Origin: Deltaproteobacteria bacterium
GTDB taxonomy: Bacteria; Myxococcota_A; UBA9160; UBA4427
Direction: 5' to 3'
Length of the DNA: 64,000 nt
Assembly (NCBI GenBank): GCA_019310385.1
Contig: JAFDEK010000002.1
Coordinates: 1 to 64,000 of the forward strand
Part shown: piece by piece, positions 55,440 to 63,515 of the stretch
How positions within the stretch are numbered: position 1 is the stretch's first letter
Layout: each line of letters opens with the position of its first letter
The notes under the pieces: generated by a model
The model's database searches: none
What the model saw: only the letters and a program-made list of their open reading frames with translations
Told to the model about the DNA's origin: nothing
Translations under genes and position numbers: made by a program

Positions 55440-56225
55440 GTGAAATGGCGACCCTCTTCTGAAGGCAGATCTTGCTCGAGCGCGAGTAACACCGCCGCCG
55501 GCTCTGGCAATGGAGGCGGGAAGCGCAGGAGATCGGGTCACGAGGCGGAGGGGCGCCTGCTCTCGAGCCTGCTGCTGATGCTGATGGTGTGGTCGGTCCT
55601 CATCGCCGGGGCGAGCTGGCCACCCGCGCCGCTGCGCGAGGCGGGGGTCCTCGCGAGCCAGCTCGTCGCCAGCGTGATGGTGCTCTTCCGCCAGTGCTGG
55701 AAGCGGGTGGGCCTTCCCGCGGCGGCATGGTGTGGCGTTGCGATCGGCTTCGTCCTGTATCCCGGGCTCGTGTGGCTCGTCTCCCGTGCGGGGCACGATC
55801 TCTTCGGCCTCTCCTACGCGAGCCCCCGCGCGCCCGGGGCGGGTGAGCCTGCCGGCTGGTTGGCGGCCGTGGTGCTCTCTCCGCTCTTCGAAGAGAGCCT
55901 CTATCGCGGGCAGCTGCTTCCAGCCCTGCGCGCCGTGGCGGGTCCCGGGGTGGCGCTGCTCTTCTCGAGTGCGTTCTTCGCGTTCAGCCATCTCACGCCC
56001 TGGAGCATGTTGACGACCTTCCTGGTGGGGCTGGCTCTCGGCTGCGTGTCGCTCGTGACGCGAGATCTGTGGCTGTGCGTCGGACTGCATGCCGGGCTGA
56101 ATCTCGCCCTCGTCATCACGGGCTCTCCGCCCCAGCGTCTTGCGCTGTCGGTGCCGGCGAGCCTCGCGGTCGGGCTGGCGTGCCTGGTTGTTCTATCGCG
56201 TCCCGGTAGGAGTCCTCATGCCTGA
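55440..56225 (+). CDS. CPBP-family intramembrane glutamic/metallo protease (myxosortase-like)
   Basis: 261 residues with about six membrane helices. The three family motifs are all present: SPLFEESLYRGQLLP (E151, E152, R156), FFAFSHLTPW (H184) and GLHAGLN (H217, N221). CPBP enzymes include Rce1 and the myxosortases, which cut C-terminal sorting signals. The GTG at 55440 has no good ribosome site and the first 35 residues are low complexity, so the true start may be leaderless or later. It is the first gene of an operon overlapping the next by 8 nt. A sorting role is inference from the RHS protein in the same operon. Confidence 0.88.
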   Translation: MKWRPSSEGRSCSSASNTAAGSGNGGGKRRRSGHEAEGRLLSSLLLMLMVWSVLIAGASWPPAPLREAGVLASQLVASVMVLFRQCWKRVGLPAAAWCGVAIGFVLYPGLVWLVSRAGHDLFGLSYASPRAPGAGEPAGWLAAVVLSPLFEESLYRGQLLPALRAVAGPGVALLFSSAFFAFSHLTPWSMLTTFLVGLALGCVSLVTRDLWLCVGLHAGLNLALVITGSPPQRLALSVPASLAVGLACLVVLSRPGRSPHA

Positions 56226-57177
56226 ACTCGTGATCCTGGGCCTCGTCCTGGCGGTGGCCTCGCTTGCGCTTCTCGCCATGCCCGCCCGCTTGTTTCCAGG
56301 CGCTGAAGGCTCCATTCAGGGCGCTGAGGGCTCCATCCGAGGCGCTGAAGGCTCCATCCCAGGCGCTGAGGCTGGCGGCGCGGTGCTGGCAGCTCGCTAC
56401 CGCGTGGTTTCGCTCGTGGCCGTCGCGGCCTTCGGGTGCCTGCTTCGCGGGCTCGTTCCCGAGTCCGCTGCCCGGGACGGGGCCTCGTACCTCGCGGTGC
56501 TCACCGTCGGCTATGGGCACCTGGGCGGGGCTGCGTACTTCTCGCTCGGCCGACTCAGAAGGCCTGCGGGCGTATCGCTTCCCCTGCTCGCTCTCTTCGC
56601 GGTCGGCAGCGTTGCGACGCTCTTCGCCGCATGGTCGTGGCTCGCGAACGCGGGCATGGCATTCCTCTCGCCCTATCTGCTGTGGATCTTCTTCTCGCTC
56701 TTCGCGGTATCCACCTGGCACGTCATCGAGAACGACCTTGCCCTCGCCCGGGCCTACCGCAGCGGGCTGCGTCTCGGCGGGCTGAGTCGACGCGCGGGCG
56801 ATCAGCTCGCTTCCCTGGCTGCGACGGCGGCCATTACCGGGCTGGGCGTTCACCTGGTCCACTCGCCATCGCGCTGGCTCAGCTTCGGTGACCTCTTCAC
56901 TCTGGTCGTCCTGTACCACCTGGTGGGGTGGCTCGTCTTCTTTGCGGATCGGGCGAGGCGGCTCGGGGGGCGGGACCGTCAGCAGCTCCTCGCCAGGCTG
57001 GCCCTCGTGCACCTGCCCCCGGCCGCACTCGCCGGGCTCCTGATCTCCTGGGCGCCCCCGGGCCTGACCGGGCTGCGCGAGATCGTCTTCGGCCCCGGGG
57101 TCTATTCCTTCTTTGCCCTGCTCCACGTTTTGCAGACCGCTTGGGTGCGTGGGTGCGAGGAGCGCCATGCGGAGTAG
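56218..57177 (+). CDS. Polytopic His-containing membrane protein of unknown function
   Basis: 319 residues. About eight hydrophobic segments; several carry His: GYGHLGGAAYF, VSTWHVIEND, GLGVHLVHSPS, VVLYHLVGWLVFF and LLHVLQTAWVRG. The pattern suggests metal or heme ligands within the membrane, or a lipid-modifying fold, but no family is recognised. Near the N-terminus a 21-bp tandem repeat inserts three GAEGSI copies. ATG at 56218 has TAGGAG upstream and overlaps the CPBP stop; its own end overlaps the next gene by 11 nt, so it belongs to the same translated unit. Confidence 0.8.
   Translation: MPELVILGLVLAVASLALLAMPARLFPGAEGSIQGAEGSIRGAEGSIPGAEAGGAVLAARYRVVSLVAVAAFGCLLRGLVPESAARDGASYLAVLTVGYGHLGGAAYFSLGRLRRPAGVSLPLLALFAVGSVATLFAAWSWLANAGMAFLSPYLLWIFFSLFAVSTWHVIENDLALARAYRSGLRLGGLSRRAGDQLASLAATAAITGLGVHLVHSPSRWLSFGDLFTLVVLYHLVGWLVFFADRARRLGGRDRQQLLARLALVHLPPAALAGLLISWAPPGLTGLREIVFGPGVYSFFALLHVLQTAWVRGCEERHAE
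56299..56370. repeat. 21-bp in-frame tandem repeat, three full copies and a partial one
   Basis: Units begin at 56299, 56320 and 56341, with a 9-bp partial at 56362 (GGCGCTGAAGGCTCCATC). Translated as GAEGSIQ, GAEGSIR, GAEGSIP, GAE. It lies just after the first membrane helix. Confidence 0.95.
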
Positions 57178-57898
57178 CGGGCTTCAGCTCCTGTGTCTGA
57201 GCGCCGCCTTCTGGGTCGCGGTCCTGGGATATCGCGGTCGAGCGCCCTTGCGTCTCCTCGGCGGCCTGGTGTTGGGAGCGCTGAGCGCCCATCTCGGCTG
57301 GGCCTTGCTGCGCGCCGACGTGGTTGCCCAACACCCCGCGTTGCTGCTCGATCCTCGCGCCGGCTTCTGCGTGCTCTTCGTGCCCCTCGGCATGCTCGCG
57401 GTGGCGCCGTGGCGCGATGGCGAGCCGGGCGTGAGGGCATTTCTGTCCGGCACCTTCGCCGTTCTGCCGCTGGCCCTCGCGGTGGCCCGGCTGGGCTGTG
57501 TCCTGGTGGGCTGCTGTGGAGGTGGAGGCAGGGCGGGCTCGGGATTACCCCCGCACGCCGTGGCCCTGTACGACGTCGCGGGGCTCATCGCGCTGCACTT
57601 CGTTCTGCGCCAAACGCCCCGGGCCCTCGTGGCCTGCGTCTTCTGCACCAGCTTTGGAGGGCTGCGGCTACTGCTCGAGCCCCTGCGTGGCGGGCCTTCG
57701 ACGGCTGCGCCGCTGATGGCCCCGACGCTTCTCGCAGGGGCGTGGCTCGTCTTCGGGCTTCTGCTGTCTCTCGGCCCTCTGCGCTCTTCGCCCTCACTGC
57801 GTTCTCTGGGCTTCGCGTTCGCCGTCGACTCGGCCATCCCAGCGAAGGCGGATTCTCGGTCCCCGACACCCCGACTGCCACACAGGGGAGATTCTTGA
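57167..57898 (+). CDS. Lgt-like (prolipoprotein diacylglyceryl transferase-related) membrane protein
   Basis: 243 residues, about seven membrane helices. ARLGCVLVGCCGGGGR (107-122) follows the ARxGCFLxGCCxG signature of Lgt-type proteins and GLRLLLEPLRGG (165-176) resembles their RFxxEFLR region. Lgt moves diacylglyceryl from phosphatidylglycerol to the lipobox Cys of prolipoproteins. This copy is short and divergent, and the genome presumably has a housekeeping lgt elsewhere, so a dedicated role is plausible. GAGGAG precedes the ATG at 57167. It overlaps the RHS gene (TGATG). The last 30 residues are a polar tail. Confidence 0.7.
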   Translation: MRSSGLQLLCLSAAFWVAVLGYRGRAPLRLLGGLVLGALSAHLGWALLRADVVAQHPALLLDPRAGFCVLFVPLGMLAVAPWRDGEPGVRAFLSGTFAVLPLALAVARLGCVLVGCCGGGGRAGSGLPPHAVALYDVAGLIALHFVLRQTPRALVACVFCTSFGGLRLLLEPLRGGPSTAAPLMAPTLLAGAWLVFGLLLSLGPLRSSPSLRSLGFAFAVDSAIPAKADSRSPTPRLPHRGDS

Positions 57899-60800
57899 TG
57901 CGTGCCTATCGAAAATTCGCGGGAACGAGAGCGGGACGGGTCTTCTCCGTCGTGCAGTGTCTCTTGCTACTGCTCGCCACGAGCTGCATCCCGATCGGTT
58001 ACGAGGGACGGGGAGACGGCCAGCCGGCGGCCGGCCGGCCCGAGTTCCAGCGCTCCATGGTCGTCGAGCTTCCCGGCTCGACGACGGTCAACATGGCGGG
58101 AGGCAACCTGATGGTCGATCGCGTCGATCTCACCATCGATACGCGTCTCGGAACCCAGGTGTACGGAGCCGCCTACAACTCCACCGGCAATGAGTGGATC
58201 TGGTCCTTCGATCTTCGCTACGACGGCGAGCGCTTCATCGACGCCACGGGCGCCCGCTACTTCATCGACGGGCTGTCCCCTGGCGCGATGATCCCCGGGT
58301 CGGACTGGGTGCGCGTGGACGCCGATACCCTGCGGCGCATCGACGGCATGCTCTTCCACTTCGAGAACGGCAAGGTGGCCCGGATCCACCGCGCATCGTC
58401 GCAATATCCCCAGCTCTTCTACCGCTACCGGATCATGGGCGGCGAGGGCTACGTCGACCGCATCTCCGACTGCACCCGTTCGTACATCTGCGACGAGGTC
58501 GTCGCTCTGCACTGGGCGTTTCTGCCGGGCTCGGGCGTGCAGCTCCAGGTCATCGCCGACCGCAGCGGTCGCGAGGCGCATTTCAAGTACCGTCAAGGTC
58601 GGATCGTCAGCGCACGCGATCCCCTGGATCTCGAGCAGCTCTGGCCGGGGTACCGCTACGAGTACGCGGGCGAGGGGGGACGCCTCTCGGCCGTGGTCGA
58701 TTCCGAGGAGGCGCGCATCGAGTACAGCTACGCGTTCGGACGCATTCAGGAGCTGCGCCAGATCGGCGCCCAGAATCCCGTGCATCGCTTCGAGTTCGGC
58801 TGGGACGCCGAACGGGCGATGTGGTACGGCGCCAGCCTCGGCCCTGGAGGTCAACTCTGTGTGCGCCGCTACGAGAGCTTCGGACGACTTCGCGAGCTGA
58901 GCTGTGATCCCGACGAGTTCGTAGCCATGAGCTGGGACAGAGATCTGCGTCCCTCCAGCCGCTATCACAACGGACTCACGACGAGCTGGAGCTACCCGGA
59001 CGCGAACACGGTGGTGGAAACCCGGCCTTCCGGAAACCGGGTCACCACGGTCTACTCCCCGACCGGCGTCGACCGCAGGGGCAGGCGTCCCGTGGCCTCG
59101 GTCCGCGACAGCCTCGGGCTCATCGAGCACCGCGGTTACAACCCGGCGGGCCGGCTCCGGGCCATCGACAACGGTGAGGGCGACCGGCTCTGGTTCCAAT
59201 ACGACTCCGACGAGCACATCAGCGCACTGATCCGAAACAGCACGGTCGTGGAAGAGGCGCCCTCGGTCTCGATCTACTTCGACGACTTCCACGTCAGCGG
59301 GCAGCCGCAGTATGTCTTCCATCCGGACCAGATGGGAGAGCTGCGCAGCTACGACGCGGTGGGGAATCAACTCACCGGCTCGAATCTCGCTCGAGCCGTG
59401 GATCCCGGGCGCCCCGGAATCGTGTCGCGCGCCTTCGACGGTGACCGGAACTTGCGCGAGCTGAGGGTCAAGGGAATCGCCTCGGAGGGAACGCAGGGCC
59501 CGCAGGAGGTGATCCGTATCGATTACCGCTCGGACCACCAGGTTTCGCAAATCTCACGTCCCTTCGGTGGTGACAGCCGCTTCGAGTACGACGAGCTCGG
59601 TCGCCGGGTGGCACGCTACGACGTGGTCGATGGCGTGGAGCGCCCCGCCCGCATGACCTACGACGCGAGCGGAAACCTCCGATCCATGGAGCAGGCCAAC
59701 GGTATGCGGGTCGAGCTCGATTACGACTCGCTCGATCGTGTGAGTGAACAGCGCTGGCTGCGCCAGGGAGTCGTGTCGAAGATCCTGTGGATCGGGCGCA
59801 GCGATGGGCGGGTCAGCGAGCTGCGCGATTCTACCCATGCCTATCAGCCGGAGACGATCCAGTACGACCAGGCCGGCCGGATCGCACGCGTGGATTTTCC
59901 GATGGGCCTCGCATCCCGGCAGCTCGAGTACGATCTACGCAACCGCGTGATCGCAACCCACTACCTCCAGGACGATCTCGGCGTTCGCAGTCTCGAGTAC
60001 GCATACGATCTCGCGGACCGCCGGGTGGGTGTGTGGGACGACGGCGAGCGCGCCTGGGAGAAGACCTTCGAGGGCGGCCGGCTGGCGAGGCAGGACTACG
60101 GGACCACGGGCTACAGCTCCGTCTCCTACGAGCTCACGGGTGAAGCGCTGGGCTGGGTAGGCTACACGGAAGCTCGCAACTTCATGGGCGCCAGGGTCGT
60201 GCGAATCGATTACGACCGCAATCCGTGCAATACGTCGATCTGGAATCTTTGTACGGACGTCTTCGTGGAGGTGATGGGGGTCCACGCGGCGGTCGCCCAC
60301 GAGAGCTATGCGGTGGGTCAAGTGACCGGGGCCGCCGGAAGGCGCGTGCTGGCCTCGCTCGGAGGCGACCTAACGGTGGGTTCGGTGCCCCAGGCGGGGG
60401 ATCCCGGTGCGGGGAGCCACTTCGACTATGACGCGCTGAACAACATCGAACGCATCGCGACACTACCGGATGGTCCCGAGATCTCCTTCGTCTACAACGC
60501 GGAGCGCAATCGACTGCTCGAAACTCGCGAGGCGAATTCCGGTGACATCATCCACGCATACGCGTACGATGAGTCGGGCTATGTGACCAGCCGGGACGGC
60601 GTGCCCATCGGCTACGACGACGCGGGGCTCACGGTGTCGATCGGAAACGATGTCAGCTTCGAGTGGGACGCCCTGGGGCGCCCGGTCTCCTCCAATGTGG
60701 AGGGGCAGCAGCGTCACTACTATTTTGGCGGTGACGTCCTCGGGGATGCCGTGGGCAACCTCTTTGCTATCGAGTCCGACGAGTTCACGATCGATCTCAC

Positions 60801-61542
60801 CCAGGGCACCCACCGCTTCCGCCACTACGACTTCCGCAACAACGTCCGCTTTGTCACTGACGACCAGGGAGAGGTGGTCCAGCACTTCGTGTACGGGCCC
60901 TACGGCGTGGTGGAGGAGTTCGGAAGCGGTCAGGGGCAGAGCTTCGCTCGCGGCCAGGGAATTGGCAGCACGGGCCTGACCCTGCTGGGCGTGCGCGTTC
61001 TGGACTCCGACATCGGCCGATTCATCTCGCCGGACCCGATCCTGCAGCTCGGCGATTCCCACGGCTATGCGGGCGGGAACCCGCTGGACCTGTGGGACCC
61101 GGATGGCCGGCATGCGACCGGCGCCGAGTTCGGCGGAGGGGTGAGTCGGTTCGAAATCGGAACCCTCTTGATCCTGACAGGCGCGGCGCTCGCAACGGGG
61201 GCTGGCGTGCTCGCCGGGTTGGGCTACGCGGCGGCAGCCACGGCCCTGGGCATTACAAGCACGGGCTTCGTCTTCACGGGATGGGCGGTGGCCGCATCAG
61301 AAATCGTCGGCGCGGCTCCTGCCCCGCCATCCTCGCCGGGAGGGGGGCCCTACCAGGCCCCCGACGTCGGAGCAACACTCGAGGCTACGACCTTTGGCTG
61401 CTCACCGACCCATCCTTCGACGGTTCCGGTGCTTCCCGCTGCGATCTGGCTTCTGGCGCCACTTCAGATCCTCCTGGGGTGTCTCCTGGTGTCGCGCCAC
61501 CGGCGTGCGAGGCGGCGCGAAGACGGTCGAGGCTGGGAGTGA
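57898..61542 (+). CDS. RHS-repeat lipoprotein with C-terminal Cys-hydrophobic-Arg tail
   Basis: 1214 residues. The signal peptide ends in LATSC (Cys30), a lipobox. Residues about 60-1060 hold RHS/YD repeats (for example LRYDGERFIDATG, YRYEYAGEGGRLSAVVD, FHFDYDALNNIERI-like); the RHS core LRVLDSDIGRFISPDPIL then GNPLDLWDPDG closes the shell near 1065. The C-terminal part has a Gly/Ala-rich helix pair (TLLILTGAALATGAGVLAGLG), then FGCSPTHPS (Cys1168), a hydrophobic helix (VLPAAIWLLAPLQILLGCLLV) and RHRRARRRE. This resembles a C-terminal sorting signal rather than a toxin. Start at the ATG overlapping the Lgt-like stop; the upstream open frame to 57193 is a shadow. Confidence 0.88.
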   Translation: MRAYRKFAGTRAGRVFSVVQCLLLLLATSCIPIGYEGRGDGQPAAGRPEFQRSMVVELPGSTTVNMAGGNLMVDRVDLTIDTRLGTQVYGAAYNSTGNEWIWSFDLRYDGERFIDATGARYFIDGLSPGAMIPGSDWVRVDADTLRRIDGMLFHFENGKVARIHRASSQYPQLFYRYRIMGGEGYVDRISDCTRSYICDEVVALHWAFLPGSGVQLQVIADRSGREAHFKYRQGRIVSARDPLDLEQLWPGYRYEYAGEGGRLSAVVDSEEARIEYSYAFGRIQELRQIGAQNPVHRFEFGWDAERAMWYGASLGPGGQLCVRRYESFGRLRELSCDPDEFVAMSWDRDLRPSSRYHNGLTTSWSYPDANTVVETRPSGNRVTTVYSPTGVDRRGRRPVASVRDSLGLIEHRGYNPAGRLRAIDNGEGDRLWFQYDSDEHISALIRNSTVVEEAPSVSIYFDDFHVSGQPQYVFHPDQMGELRSYDAVGNQLTGSNLARAVDPGRPGIVSRAFDGDRNLRELRVKGIASEGTQGPQEVIRIDYRSDHQVSQISRPFGGDSRFEYDELGRRVARYDVVDGVERPARMTYDASGNLRSMEQANGMRVELDYDSLDRVSEQRWLRQGVVSKILWIGRSDGRVSELRDSTHAYQPETIQYDQAGRIARVDFPMGLASRQLEYDLRNRVIATHYLQDDLGVRSLEYAYDLADRRVGVWDDGERAWEKTFEGGRLARQDYGTTGYSSVSYELTGEALGWVGYTEARNFMGARVVRIDYDRNPCNTSIWNLCTDVFVEVMGVHAAVAHESYAVGQVTGAAGRRVLASLGGDLTVGSVPQAGDPGAGSHFDYDALNNIERIATLPDGPEISFVYNAERNRLLETREANSGDIIHAYAYDESGYVTSRDGVPIGYDDAGLTVSIGNDVSFEWDALGRPVSSNVEGQQRHYYFGGDVLGDAVGNLFAIESDEFTIDLTQGTHRFRHYDFRNNVRFVTDDQGEVVQHFVYGPYGVVEEFGSGQGQSFARGQGIGSTGLTLLGVRVLDSDIGRFISPDPILQLGDSHGYAGGNPLDLWDPDGRHATGAEFGGGVSRFEIGTLLILTGAALATGAGVLAGLGYAAAATALGITSTGFVFTGWAVAASEIVGAAPAPPSSPGGGPYQAPDVGATLEATTFGCSPTHPSTVPVLPAAIWLLAPLQILLGCLLVSRHRRARRREDGRGWE

Positions 61543-63515
61543 AGGAAGCCAGGGATCTGTGCTCGGACGGAGTCGCGCCTCCGAGAGACGATGAGGAGGC
61601 ATTCGAGCTTCGTCGTTCTTCGAGGGTCGGGCTCGTGCTCGCTCCGTACTCGGGAGCACTGGTCGCGGTGGTGCTCGCGTTCTGGATGCAGGAGGCCGGC
61701 TACCACCCCGGCCACCTTCCGCTGAGTCGCTACCTCATCCCGTTGACGCTGATTCTGCTGCTCGCGATCCTGGTCACGCTACGCATTGTCACCACTCGAG
61801 CGCACCTGCGCATCGCTGGAAAAGAGATCGCGTTTCCCGGCATCGCGTGCTTCTGGAAGAATCGAAGACTGCGTACGAAGGAAATCAGGTCCTACGTCCG
61901 GATCGGCCACGGACCTTCCAGTCGCGTGTTCTTCTCCTGGGCTGGCTTCAATTCCACGAGGGTCTATGGCCCACGGAGCTTCGTCGAGCCCGACGCCCTC
62001 GATCGTTTCGATGCTGCGATGACCCGGGCACTCGCCGGCCACCCGGAGCTGGATCAGGTACTGCTTCGTGGTTCCCTGATTGCCAGGCTTCGAAGAGCCC
62101 CGCGGCTCTGCCTGGCCATCGCCGTTGCGCTGGCACTCGTGTTCTGCTGGCAGCTCATCCGATCGAGCCACAGCCCGCCGGTGGATGCTCTGCTCTCCGG
62201 AGCACTCTCTCCATGGCTCGTCTGGCACCAGGGCGAGTGGTTTCGGCTGGCCTCGGCACCGCTGCTCCACGGGGGAGTCCTCCACTTGATGCTCAATCTC
62301 GTGACATTCATCGCCCTGGGCTTGATGATCGAGCCGGCACTGGGTCGCTGGAGGATGCTGGTCGTCATCGCGTCGAGCGCAGCGGTGTCGAGCATTGCGA
62401 GCTCCTTCGTGAGCGCGTCCCTCGCAAGCATGGGTTTCTCCGGCGCGGTCTTCGGGCTGCTCGGCGCCTCCATCGCCCTCGTGTTTCGCTTTCATCGACT
62501 CATGGCGATTGGCTGGCAGGGTGGCGCAGGGATGCTGCTGCTCACGTTGTTTGCAGTCGTGTCCCAGTGGTTCACCATGCCGATCATCGACCACGCCGCG
62601 CATGTCGCCGGGCTGCTGACGGGCGCACTGCTCGGGCTGGTGCTCGGCAGCGAGCGCGAGCTGCAGCAAGGCGATCACCAGCCGGGCAGGGCGCTGGTAC
62701 TGCTCGGGGCGATCTCCTGTGCGCTGTGGTTGCTGGCCGCAGGGAGGGCTGTGCAATACGGCGAGGCACACGATCTCGGGACGCTACTGCGAGAACTCAG
62801 GGAGAATACGGATCCTGGCAGGGCGGGCCGAAAGCTCGTGTATGCGAGCGTGCTGGCCGTCTCGGCACTGGAGGACGAGCGGGTTGGAGCGGTGGACCTC
62901 GCTCGGGCGAGTGAGGTGTTGTCGGACGTGGTGGAGCGCGGCTCGGGGTCACCCGATACGCTGACTATTCTCGCCGCGCTCGAGTACGTGCTGGGGAACC
63001 CACGAGTTGCCGTGAAACATGCGAGAGAGGCTGACGCAGGGGACAAGGGCGAAGCAGACGCAGATTGGATCGCGGAGCTTTCGCTCTACGAATGGATGAG
63101 CGACCCGGTTCGCGCCGGTCCCGGAGCTGCGGTGGCCGAAGGAGCAGGCGGTGTGCCCGCGCTCACTGTGGTGGACGACGCTCCGCGTACCGGCGATGTT
63201 CTCACACTCACCTCGCCCATCGCGCATCCCAAGGGCCTCGTGGCACACGTCCTGGTGCTGGAAGGCAGGGAGTTGCGCGGCTTCCTGCGGCTGCGCTTCG
63301 GCCCCTTTCGAGGTGGACAGAGGCACTTCGCAGAAGGGTGGAGCGAATTCCGGGAGGGTCGCGAGCTGAGCTATCGGATCACCTATTTCGATGAACCCGC
63401 TGAGCCGCTTCGGCCGGGAGACTGGCAGTGGCGTTACTGGCCGTGGCAGCCGGAGGTGGTCGAGTTCCTCGATGAACGGGCGGCGGCGTTGCGGCATTCG
63501 GCCGAGTTTCTGTAG
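61539..63515 (+). CDS. Rhomboid-family intramembrane serine protease with N- and C-terminal extensions
   Basis: 658 residues from GTG 61539 overlapping the RHS stop (GTGA). A first pair of helices (about 33-85) is followed by a small PH-like segment (85-170) before the rhomboid core: HGGVLHLMLNL (H244...N253), GFSGAVFGLLGA (S301 nucleophile) and DHAAHVAGLLTGALLG (H355). After six helices a 250-residue helical and beta C-terminal domain follows, ending EFLDERAAAL. Rhombosortases process GlyGly-CTERM proteins; here rhomboid and CPBP proteases share one operon with one RHS target. No GlyGly-CTERM is visible, so its substrate is unknown. Confidence 0.88.
   Translation: MKEARDLCSDGVAPPRDDEEAFELRRSSRVGLVLAPYSGALVAVVLAFWMQEAGYHPGHLPLSRYLIPLTLILLLAILVTLRIVTTRAHLRIAGKEIAFPGIACFWKNRRLRTKEIRSYVRIGHGPSSRVFFSWAGFNSTRVYGPRSFVEPDALDRFDAAMTRALAGHPELDQVLLRGSLIARLRRAPRLCLAIAVALALVFCWQLIRSSHSPPVDALLSGALSPWLVWHQGEWFRLASAPLLHGGVLHLMLNLVTFIALGLMIEPALGRWRMLVVIASSAAVSSIASSFVSASLASMGFSGAVFGLLGASIALVFRFHRLMAIGWQGGAGMLLLTLFAVVSQWFTMPIIDHAAHVAGLLTGALLGLVLGSERELQQGDHQPGRALVLLGAISCALWLLAAGRAVQYGEAHDLGTLLRELRENTDPGRAGRKLVYASVLAVSALEDERVGAVDLARASEVLSDVVERGSGSPDTLTILAALEYVLGNPRVAVKHAREADAGDKGEADADWIAELSLYEWMSDPVRAGPGAAVAEGAGGVPALTVVDDAPRTGDVLTLTSPIAHPKGLVAHVLVLEGRELRGFLRLRFGPFRGGQRHFAEGWSEFREGRELSYRITYFDEPAEPLRPGDWQWRYWPWQPEVVEFLDERAAALRHSAEFL

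Follow-up and report, generated by a model that had tools for sequence, protein, structure and literature searches.

In Myxococcus xanthus, the CPBP protease MrtX cleaves the C-terminal tails known as MYXO-CTERM and needs their Cys; prior lipidation by an Lgt-like enzyme has been proposed for these tails, the cognate acyltransferase being stated as unidentified (Guo, Haft and Wall 2025, PMC11980579). A literature search on C-terminal Lgt, 'lipo-invert' or JDVT-CTERM returned this paper only. In Lgt of E. coli, R143 and R239 are essential, and the HGGL region was proposed to bind the lipobox peptide (PMC4728403). We analysed a window of 64,000 nucleotides from a Deltaproteobacteria bacterium (assembly GCA_019310385.1, contig JAFDEK010000002.1, positions 1-64,000 of the forward strand), which carries genes for a CPBP protease, a His-rich multi-helix membrane protein (HisMP), a divergent Lgt paralogue (LgtL) and an RHS lipoprotein with a Cys-containing C-terminal tail. 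The analyses indicated that these four genes are a co-inherited system of an uncultured order of Myxococcota and not one conserved operon; that they form one functional system is very probable.

The comparison drew on 80 genomes from the family and the order, that of the window among them, and the RHS family was present in 44. With truncated RHS copies left out, 22 genomes carried the tail and 17 carried only untailed copies. LgtL was found in 21 of the 22 tailed and in 0 of the 17 untailed RHS genomes (Fisher p 3.5e-10), the CPBP protease in 20/22 and 1/17, respectively, at a threshold (about 1e-24) chosen after the score gap was seen, and HisMP in 18/22 and 1/17. Co-occurrence remained significant when counted at genus level. 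The single-protein search for LgtL gave matches in 24 of the 80 genomes at E 0.001, and 23 of these were confirmed by profile. Since the N-terminal lipobox Cys was kept in all 40 RHS family members examined, tailed or untailed, LgtL follows the C-terminal Cys and not the N-terminal one. An earlier note on this DNA had proposed a dedicated sorting and lipidation operon that should co-occur in relatives and would be undermined by RHS relatives lacking the Cys tail. The co-occurrence was found. Relatives without the tail do exist, and they strengthen the case, since precisely those genomes are also without LgtL while keeping the lipobox.

A phylogenetic tree of the RHS shell, constructed with the tail region excluded, has well-supported branches that require the tail state to have changed four or more times. 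LgtL tracked the tail state in nearly all random pairings of three independent pairs and the opposite was never obtained.

The five plus-strand reading frames seen in the earlier note were confirmed; they run head to tail at 55440-63515 with overlaps of 8, 11, 1 and 4 nucleotides, the fifth gene coding for a rhomboid protease. Shine-Dalgarno-like GGAG or GGGGAG sequences were located upstream of the second, third and fourth genes (HisMP, LgtL and RHS). The idea of the five genes as an operon inherited as a unit had to be given up, because gene orders differ among relatives and the rhomboid is present at few loci; only the association of four genes holds. RHS, HisMP, LgtL and CPBP lie together in varying orders at loci L029, L030, L040, L048 and L049, three of the four are found at L046 and L122, and divergent LgtL/CPBP pairs occur at L045 and L047. 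Genes of the system were also found on different contigs of one genome, co-occurring though unlinked. In a scan of named genomes for LgtL, loci of the system were found only in metagenome-assembled genomes labelled Myxococcota, Myxococcales, Deltaproteobacteria or bacterium, and where LgtL matches fell in other phyla, these profiles showed neither CPBP nor HisMP next to them.

The client is the RHS lipoprotein (57898..61542, plus strand), in which searches of Pfam and NCBIfam identified RHS repeats (94 bits) and an RHS core. A longer RHS frame beginning at 57193 in the list of open reading frames was discarded, since it only continues the reading frame mechanically upstream of where the gene really starts. 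Alignment of 16 whole RHS orthologues revealed that the columns without any variation include those of the lipobox Cys, C30 (codon 57985..57987, plus strand), and of the tail Cys, C1168, while the C-terminal region around C1168 is freely variable. The tail (61396..61539, plus strand) contains Cys1168-Ser-Pro (Cys codon 61399-61401), followed by a hydrophobic helix (61429-61491) with an in-membrane Gln1190 (61465-61467) and an Arg cluster. The same architecture is common to the orthologues: C-[SAT]-P, a short spacer, the hydrophobic helix and the Arg cluster. The tail Cys is invariant in all 23 aligned tails, each of which also carries a Gln or Asn in mid-helix, often as P-x-Q; one of the 23, at L046, reads C-H-G in place of C-[SAT]-P. 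The two cysteines of the earlier note were thus retained, while its GC motif was replaced by C-[SAT]-P.

A profile of the tails, as the earlier note had suggested building, was searched against the 80 genomes and found 23 places with E values no higher than 1.8e-10, every one of them in the RHS family, before a gap to the next place at 0.002; the profile was trained on RHS tails and diverged clients could escape it. One client per genome is therefore the rule, G007 and G025 being exceptions that have two each; the second tail of G025 has a long insert and was found only by reading the locus. Among tails built in this way, that of RHS is the sole convincing one in the window genome, and no further convincing one was seen within the 64-kb window. 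The tail was rejected as a MYXO-CTERM or other curated CTERM signal because it gave no match: MYXO-CTERM (TIGR03901) did not match any of ten RHS tails, and there was no GlyGly-CTERM match for the RHS tail. In the window genome MYXO-CTERM gave borderline places only (best E 0.006). With the NCBIfam 'lipo-invert' model NF058595, one tail reached E 0.067; across the phylum this model found places that were nearly all under its cut-off, which was exceeded in 2 of 189 genomes. The C-[SAT]-P tail with its in-membrane Gln or Asn is predicted to be a new signal for C-terminal sorting. RHS relatives in genomes without LgtL (L164, L165, L166, L168 and L169) were observed to end in another kind of Cys tail, in which C-G-[LI]-x-x-E precedes a hydrophobic stretch and then an Arg cluster; it is a putative second type of C-terminal anchor on the same RHS shell.

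LgtL (57167..57898, plus strand) matched the LGT family PF01790 at 25.2 bits, with a cut-off of 24.9. The AlphaFold2 model of LgtL had a mean pLDDT of 86, and the single PDB fold match of this model below E 0.001 was E. coli Lgt, 5azb (E 1.7e-4, probability 1.00), in agreement with the Lgt-like identity given in the earlier note. Comparison of the LgtL profile, which includes one housekeeping row, with E. coli Lgt gave E 4e-10. Residues R108, R167, E171 and R174 of LgtL correspond to R143, R239, E243 and R246 of E. coli Lgt; the Arg residues are invariant in 18 LgtL rows and E171 is nearly so. The HGGL region is replaced in LgtL by a conserved L-x-x-P-x-G stretch. The His of HGGL alone is not universal, since the housekeeping Lgt of the window genome itself has YGGL. 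Retention of the catalytic Arg residues together with a changed HGGL region could fit a transferase that uses the same donor and another acceptor. The possibility, raised in the earlier note, that LgtL is the sole housekeeping lgt was rejected, as a separate lgt is located on contig C117 and scores 171.9 bits as against 24.9 for LgtL. LgtL is a candidate lipidating enzyme for the C-terminal Cys, and from its fold, its conserved residues and its distribution we infer that it probably modifies that residue.

Among genomes of the phylum, LgtL matches above 73 bits were confined to the window's order, and the Lgt paralogues found elsewhere in the phylum were weaker (65 bits or less); none of the latter had a CPBP neighbour in the twelve loci read. 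Lgt paralogues carrying R-x-G-C-x-x-x-G-C-C were observed at L292, L293, L295 and L297, in Myxococcota outside the order, and these are candidates for the acyltransferases of MYXO-CTERM tails.

The CPBP protein (55440..56225, plus strand) is an Rce1-like glutamic intramembrane protease (PF02517, 68 bits) and, by its active site and its co-inheritance with the tail, the candidate remover of the RHS C-terminal helix. Its active-site residues E151, E152, H184 and H217, pointed out in the earlier note, are intact and proved invariant across ten homologues. Against the myxosortase core model NF040914 it scored 18.6-19.3 bits (cut-off 100), and none of the 80 relatives contained a protein over this cut-off. 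The nearest curated sorting protease by model score was MrtJ, at 29.7-30.1 bits (cut-off 75). HisMP (56218..57177, plus strand) gave no match in Pfam, NCBIfam or PDB folds. Its homologues share invariant GYGH and S-x-W-H-x-x-E-N motifs and three more His residues, and of 379 genomes sampled from the phylum, 20 contained it, every one of them belonging to the window's order. These motifs and this distribution define what is, by sequence criteria, a new membrane protein family. The earlier note had listed HisMP among the five genes and assigned it no role; it is in fact near the core of the system, to judge from the tailed genomes that carry it. In-frame tandem repeats of a GAEGSI unit were observed near the HisMP N-terminus (56299-56375) and are missing from the homologues. 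At L043 a single frame holds both CPBP (residues 16-239) and HisMP (residues 261-555), which counts as weak support, because an assembly frameshift between normally overlapping genes could mimic a fusion.

On balance we favour a system dedicated to lipid anchoring at the C-terminus, which in most genomes has a single substrate. In this model the RHS protein would be exported by Sec and Cys30 lipidated by the housekeeping Lgt/Lsp pathway. The tripartite architecture of the tail suggests that the C-terminal helix would hold the protein in the inner membrane, with Cys1168 in the periplasm and the Arg cluster in the cytoplasm. LgtL, by its fold, its retained catalytic Arg and its co-inheritance with the tail, would transfer diacylglyceryl onto Cys1168, and CPBP would cut beside the lipidated Cys and remove the helix, as the myxosortase and CAAX precedents suggest. 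HisMP may work with the protease and, by analogy with CAAX processing, might finish the new C-terminus. The outcome would be an RHS shell tethered by a lipid at either end and presumably displayed on the surface.

Several observations weigh against this model. The RHS tree offers few independent contrasts; all three agree (3/3, p 0.25), which is too small a number to be significant alone. The tailed genome G054 (85% complete) has no detected LgtL, and four tailed genomes are without HisMP; since two of these (G011 and G039) are well assembled, the system does not strictly need HisMP. Some genomes of the window's family have LgtL unlinked, by itself in a different conserved neighbourhood that has no relation to RHS (L031, L033, L035, L036, L037, L041, L042 and L044), with RHS and CPBP-HisMP elsewhere in the genome, so other roles for LgtL are possible. 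Genomes G063 and G069, counted as untailed, have a diverged CPBP and different Cys tails with no detectable LgtL; the loci where the diverged CPBP accompanies Cys-tailed RHS are L162 and L120 in G063, where HisMP is diverged too, and L167 in G069. These sets are possibly a diverged version of the same system. Lipidation and cleavage are themselves inferred. Moreover, E. coli lacks any dedicated transferase and yet MrtX cleaves a MYXO-CTERM tail there (PMC11980579); a housekeeping Lgt might therefore be enough in the present system as well.

The last observation is the basis of an alternative in which the tail Cys is modified by the housekeeping Lgt or by no enzyme, LgtL prepares the donor lipid or acts as a chaperone, and CPBP still cleaves. 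The compactness of LgtL and its loss of HGGL also agree with this scheme, which we nevertheless consider unlikely: LgtL retains the Arg residues that E. coli Lgt needs to transfer diacylglyceryl, and its occurrence among genomes follows that of the tail. LgtL could instead be a second Lgt serving the N-terminal lipobox Cys, with the C-terminal helix as a plain membrane anchor, given that the lipobox Cys is conserved and that LgtL is a relative of Lgt. This is improbable. All 18 untailed RHS members keep the lipobox Cys, yet none of the 17 untailed genomes has LgtL; the one untailed member that does share a genome with LgtL is a paralogue in G001, which has a tailed copy as well. A housekeeping Lgt is already present in the window genome, and a plain anchor leaves the invariant tail Cys unexplained.

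The choice of protease was weighed in the same way. The rhomboid gene (61539..63515, plus strand; PF01694, 83.5 bits) is translationally coupled to RHS by the overlap of 4 nucleotides, and its product gives a weak match to the rhombosortase model (35.9 bits, cut-off 84), so that the rhomboid might be the processing protease while CPBP does something else. That is very unlikely, since the rhomboid adjoins RHS in only six tailed loci, the window included, and two untailed loci, as compared with CPBP in nearly all tailed genomes, and the tail lacks the GlyGly-CTERM signal. The dedicated Lgt-like enzyme and the CPBP protease that the earlier note had tied to the Cys tail are thus kept, while the rhomboid, which accompanies a minority of RHS loci, untailed ones included, is best regarded as accessory to RHS, with no core part. 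It has long extensions on either side of the protease domain, and its relatives lie directly downstream of RHS genes regardless of tail type, which suggests a function of the rhomboid together with the shell of the RHS protein. A core of the RHS kind typifies polymorphic toxins, and when a toxin has a small membrane protein as neighbour, that protein often confers immunity. An RHS core with neighbouring membrane proteins fits that general pattern, in which the membrane proteins would serve immunity or export and the tail would have no role in sorting. We regard this as highly improbable: the RHS core is followed by a low-complexity linker and the conserved tail, with no toxin domain behind the core and none in place of the tail, and the partners belong to conserved enzyme families with intact active sites that co-occur even when unlinked.

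The C-terminal lipid-anchoring model makes LgtL a strong candidate for the type of lipid-attaching enzyme that workers on tail anchoring have described as not yet identified, and suggests a route by which the action of an Lgt can shift from the N-terminus to the other end of a protein. Client relatives that lack both the tail and the transferase provide a natural control, and the system, with its two or three enzymes and one client all defined genetically, is small enough for C-terminal lipidation to be tested on it. A predicted sorting signal and a membrane protein family, both apparently new, are added to those already described.

With the canonical Lgt/LspA pathway the system shares an enzyme of Lgt fold that has the catalytic Arg pair, Cys as the residue expected to accept the lipid, and lipidation that would precede proteolysis; the putative acceptor is, however, a C-terminal Cys in inverted topology, the HGGL region is replaced and the protease is CPBP and not LspA. 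The rhombosortase/GlyGly-CTERM system resembles the present one in the rhomboid gene and the tripartite tail, while the GlyGly motif is absent here and the rhomboid is not co-inherited with the tail. The eukaryotic CAAX pathway (prenyltransferase, Rce1 and ICMT) similarly attaches a lipid to a C-terminal Cys before Rce1-type cleavage, as is proposed here, possibly with a third membrane enzyme; here the transferase is of Lgt type, its action would be periplasmic, and no relation between HisMP and ICMT was detectable. Tentatively, LgtL, CPBP and HisMP could be a bacterial counterpart of the CAAX triad that lipidates, cleaves and, through a hitherto undescribed His-rich membrane enzyme, finishes the C-terminus of a client lipidated at both ends. 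The JDVT-CTERM/MrtJ two-gene system (PMC11980579), like ours, pairs a CPBP protease with a single Cys-tailed client. It was described in beta- and gammaproteobacteria and not in Myxococcota, with neither an Lgt paralogue nor HisMP, and the CPBP protein studied here reaches about 30 bits against the MrtJ cut-off of 75. The MrtX/MYXO-CTERM system has in common with ours the phylum, the CPBP protease, the tripartite tail of invariant Cys, helix and Arg cluster, and an Lgt-like acyltransferase in its published model. It differs in having dozens of clients where there is usually one per genome here, in a tail that is not the C-[SAT]-P type with in-membrane Gln or Asn, in the CPBP score (about 19 bits here, against the 100-bit cut-off of the myxosortase core), and in the dedicated, co-inherited Lgt paralogue and the extra family HisMP that are found here. 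Judged from its genes, the system is no member of the myxosortase systems by the curated tests, yet it would work like one.

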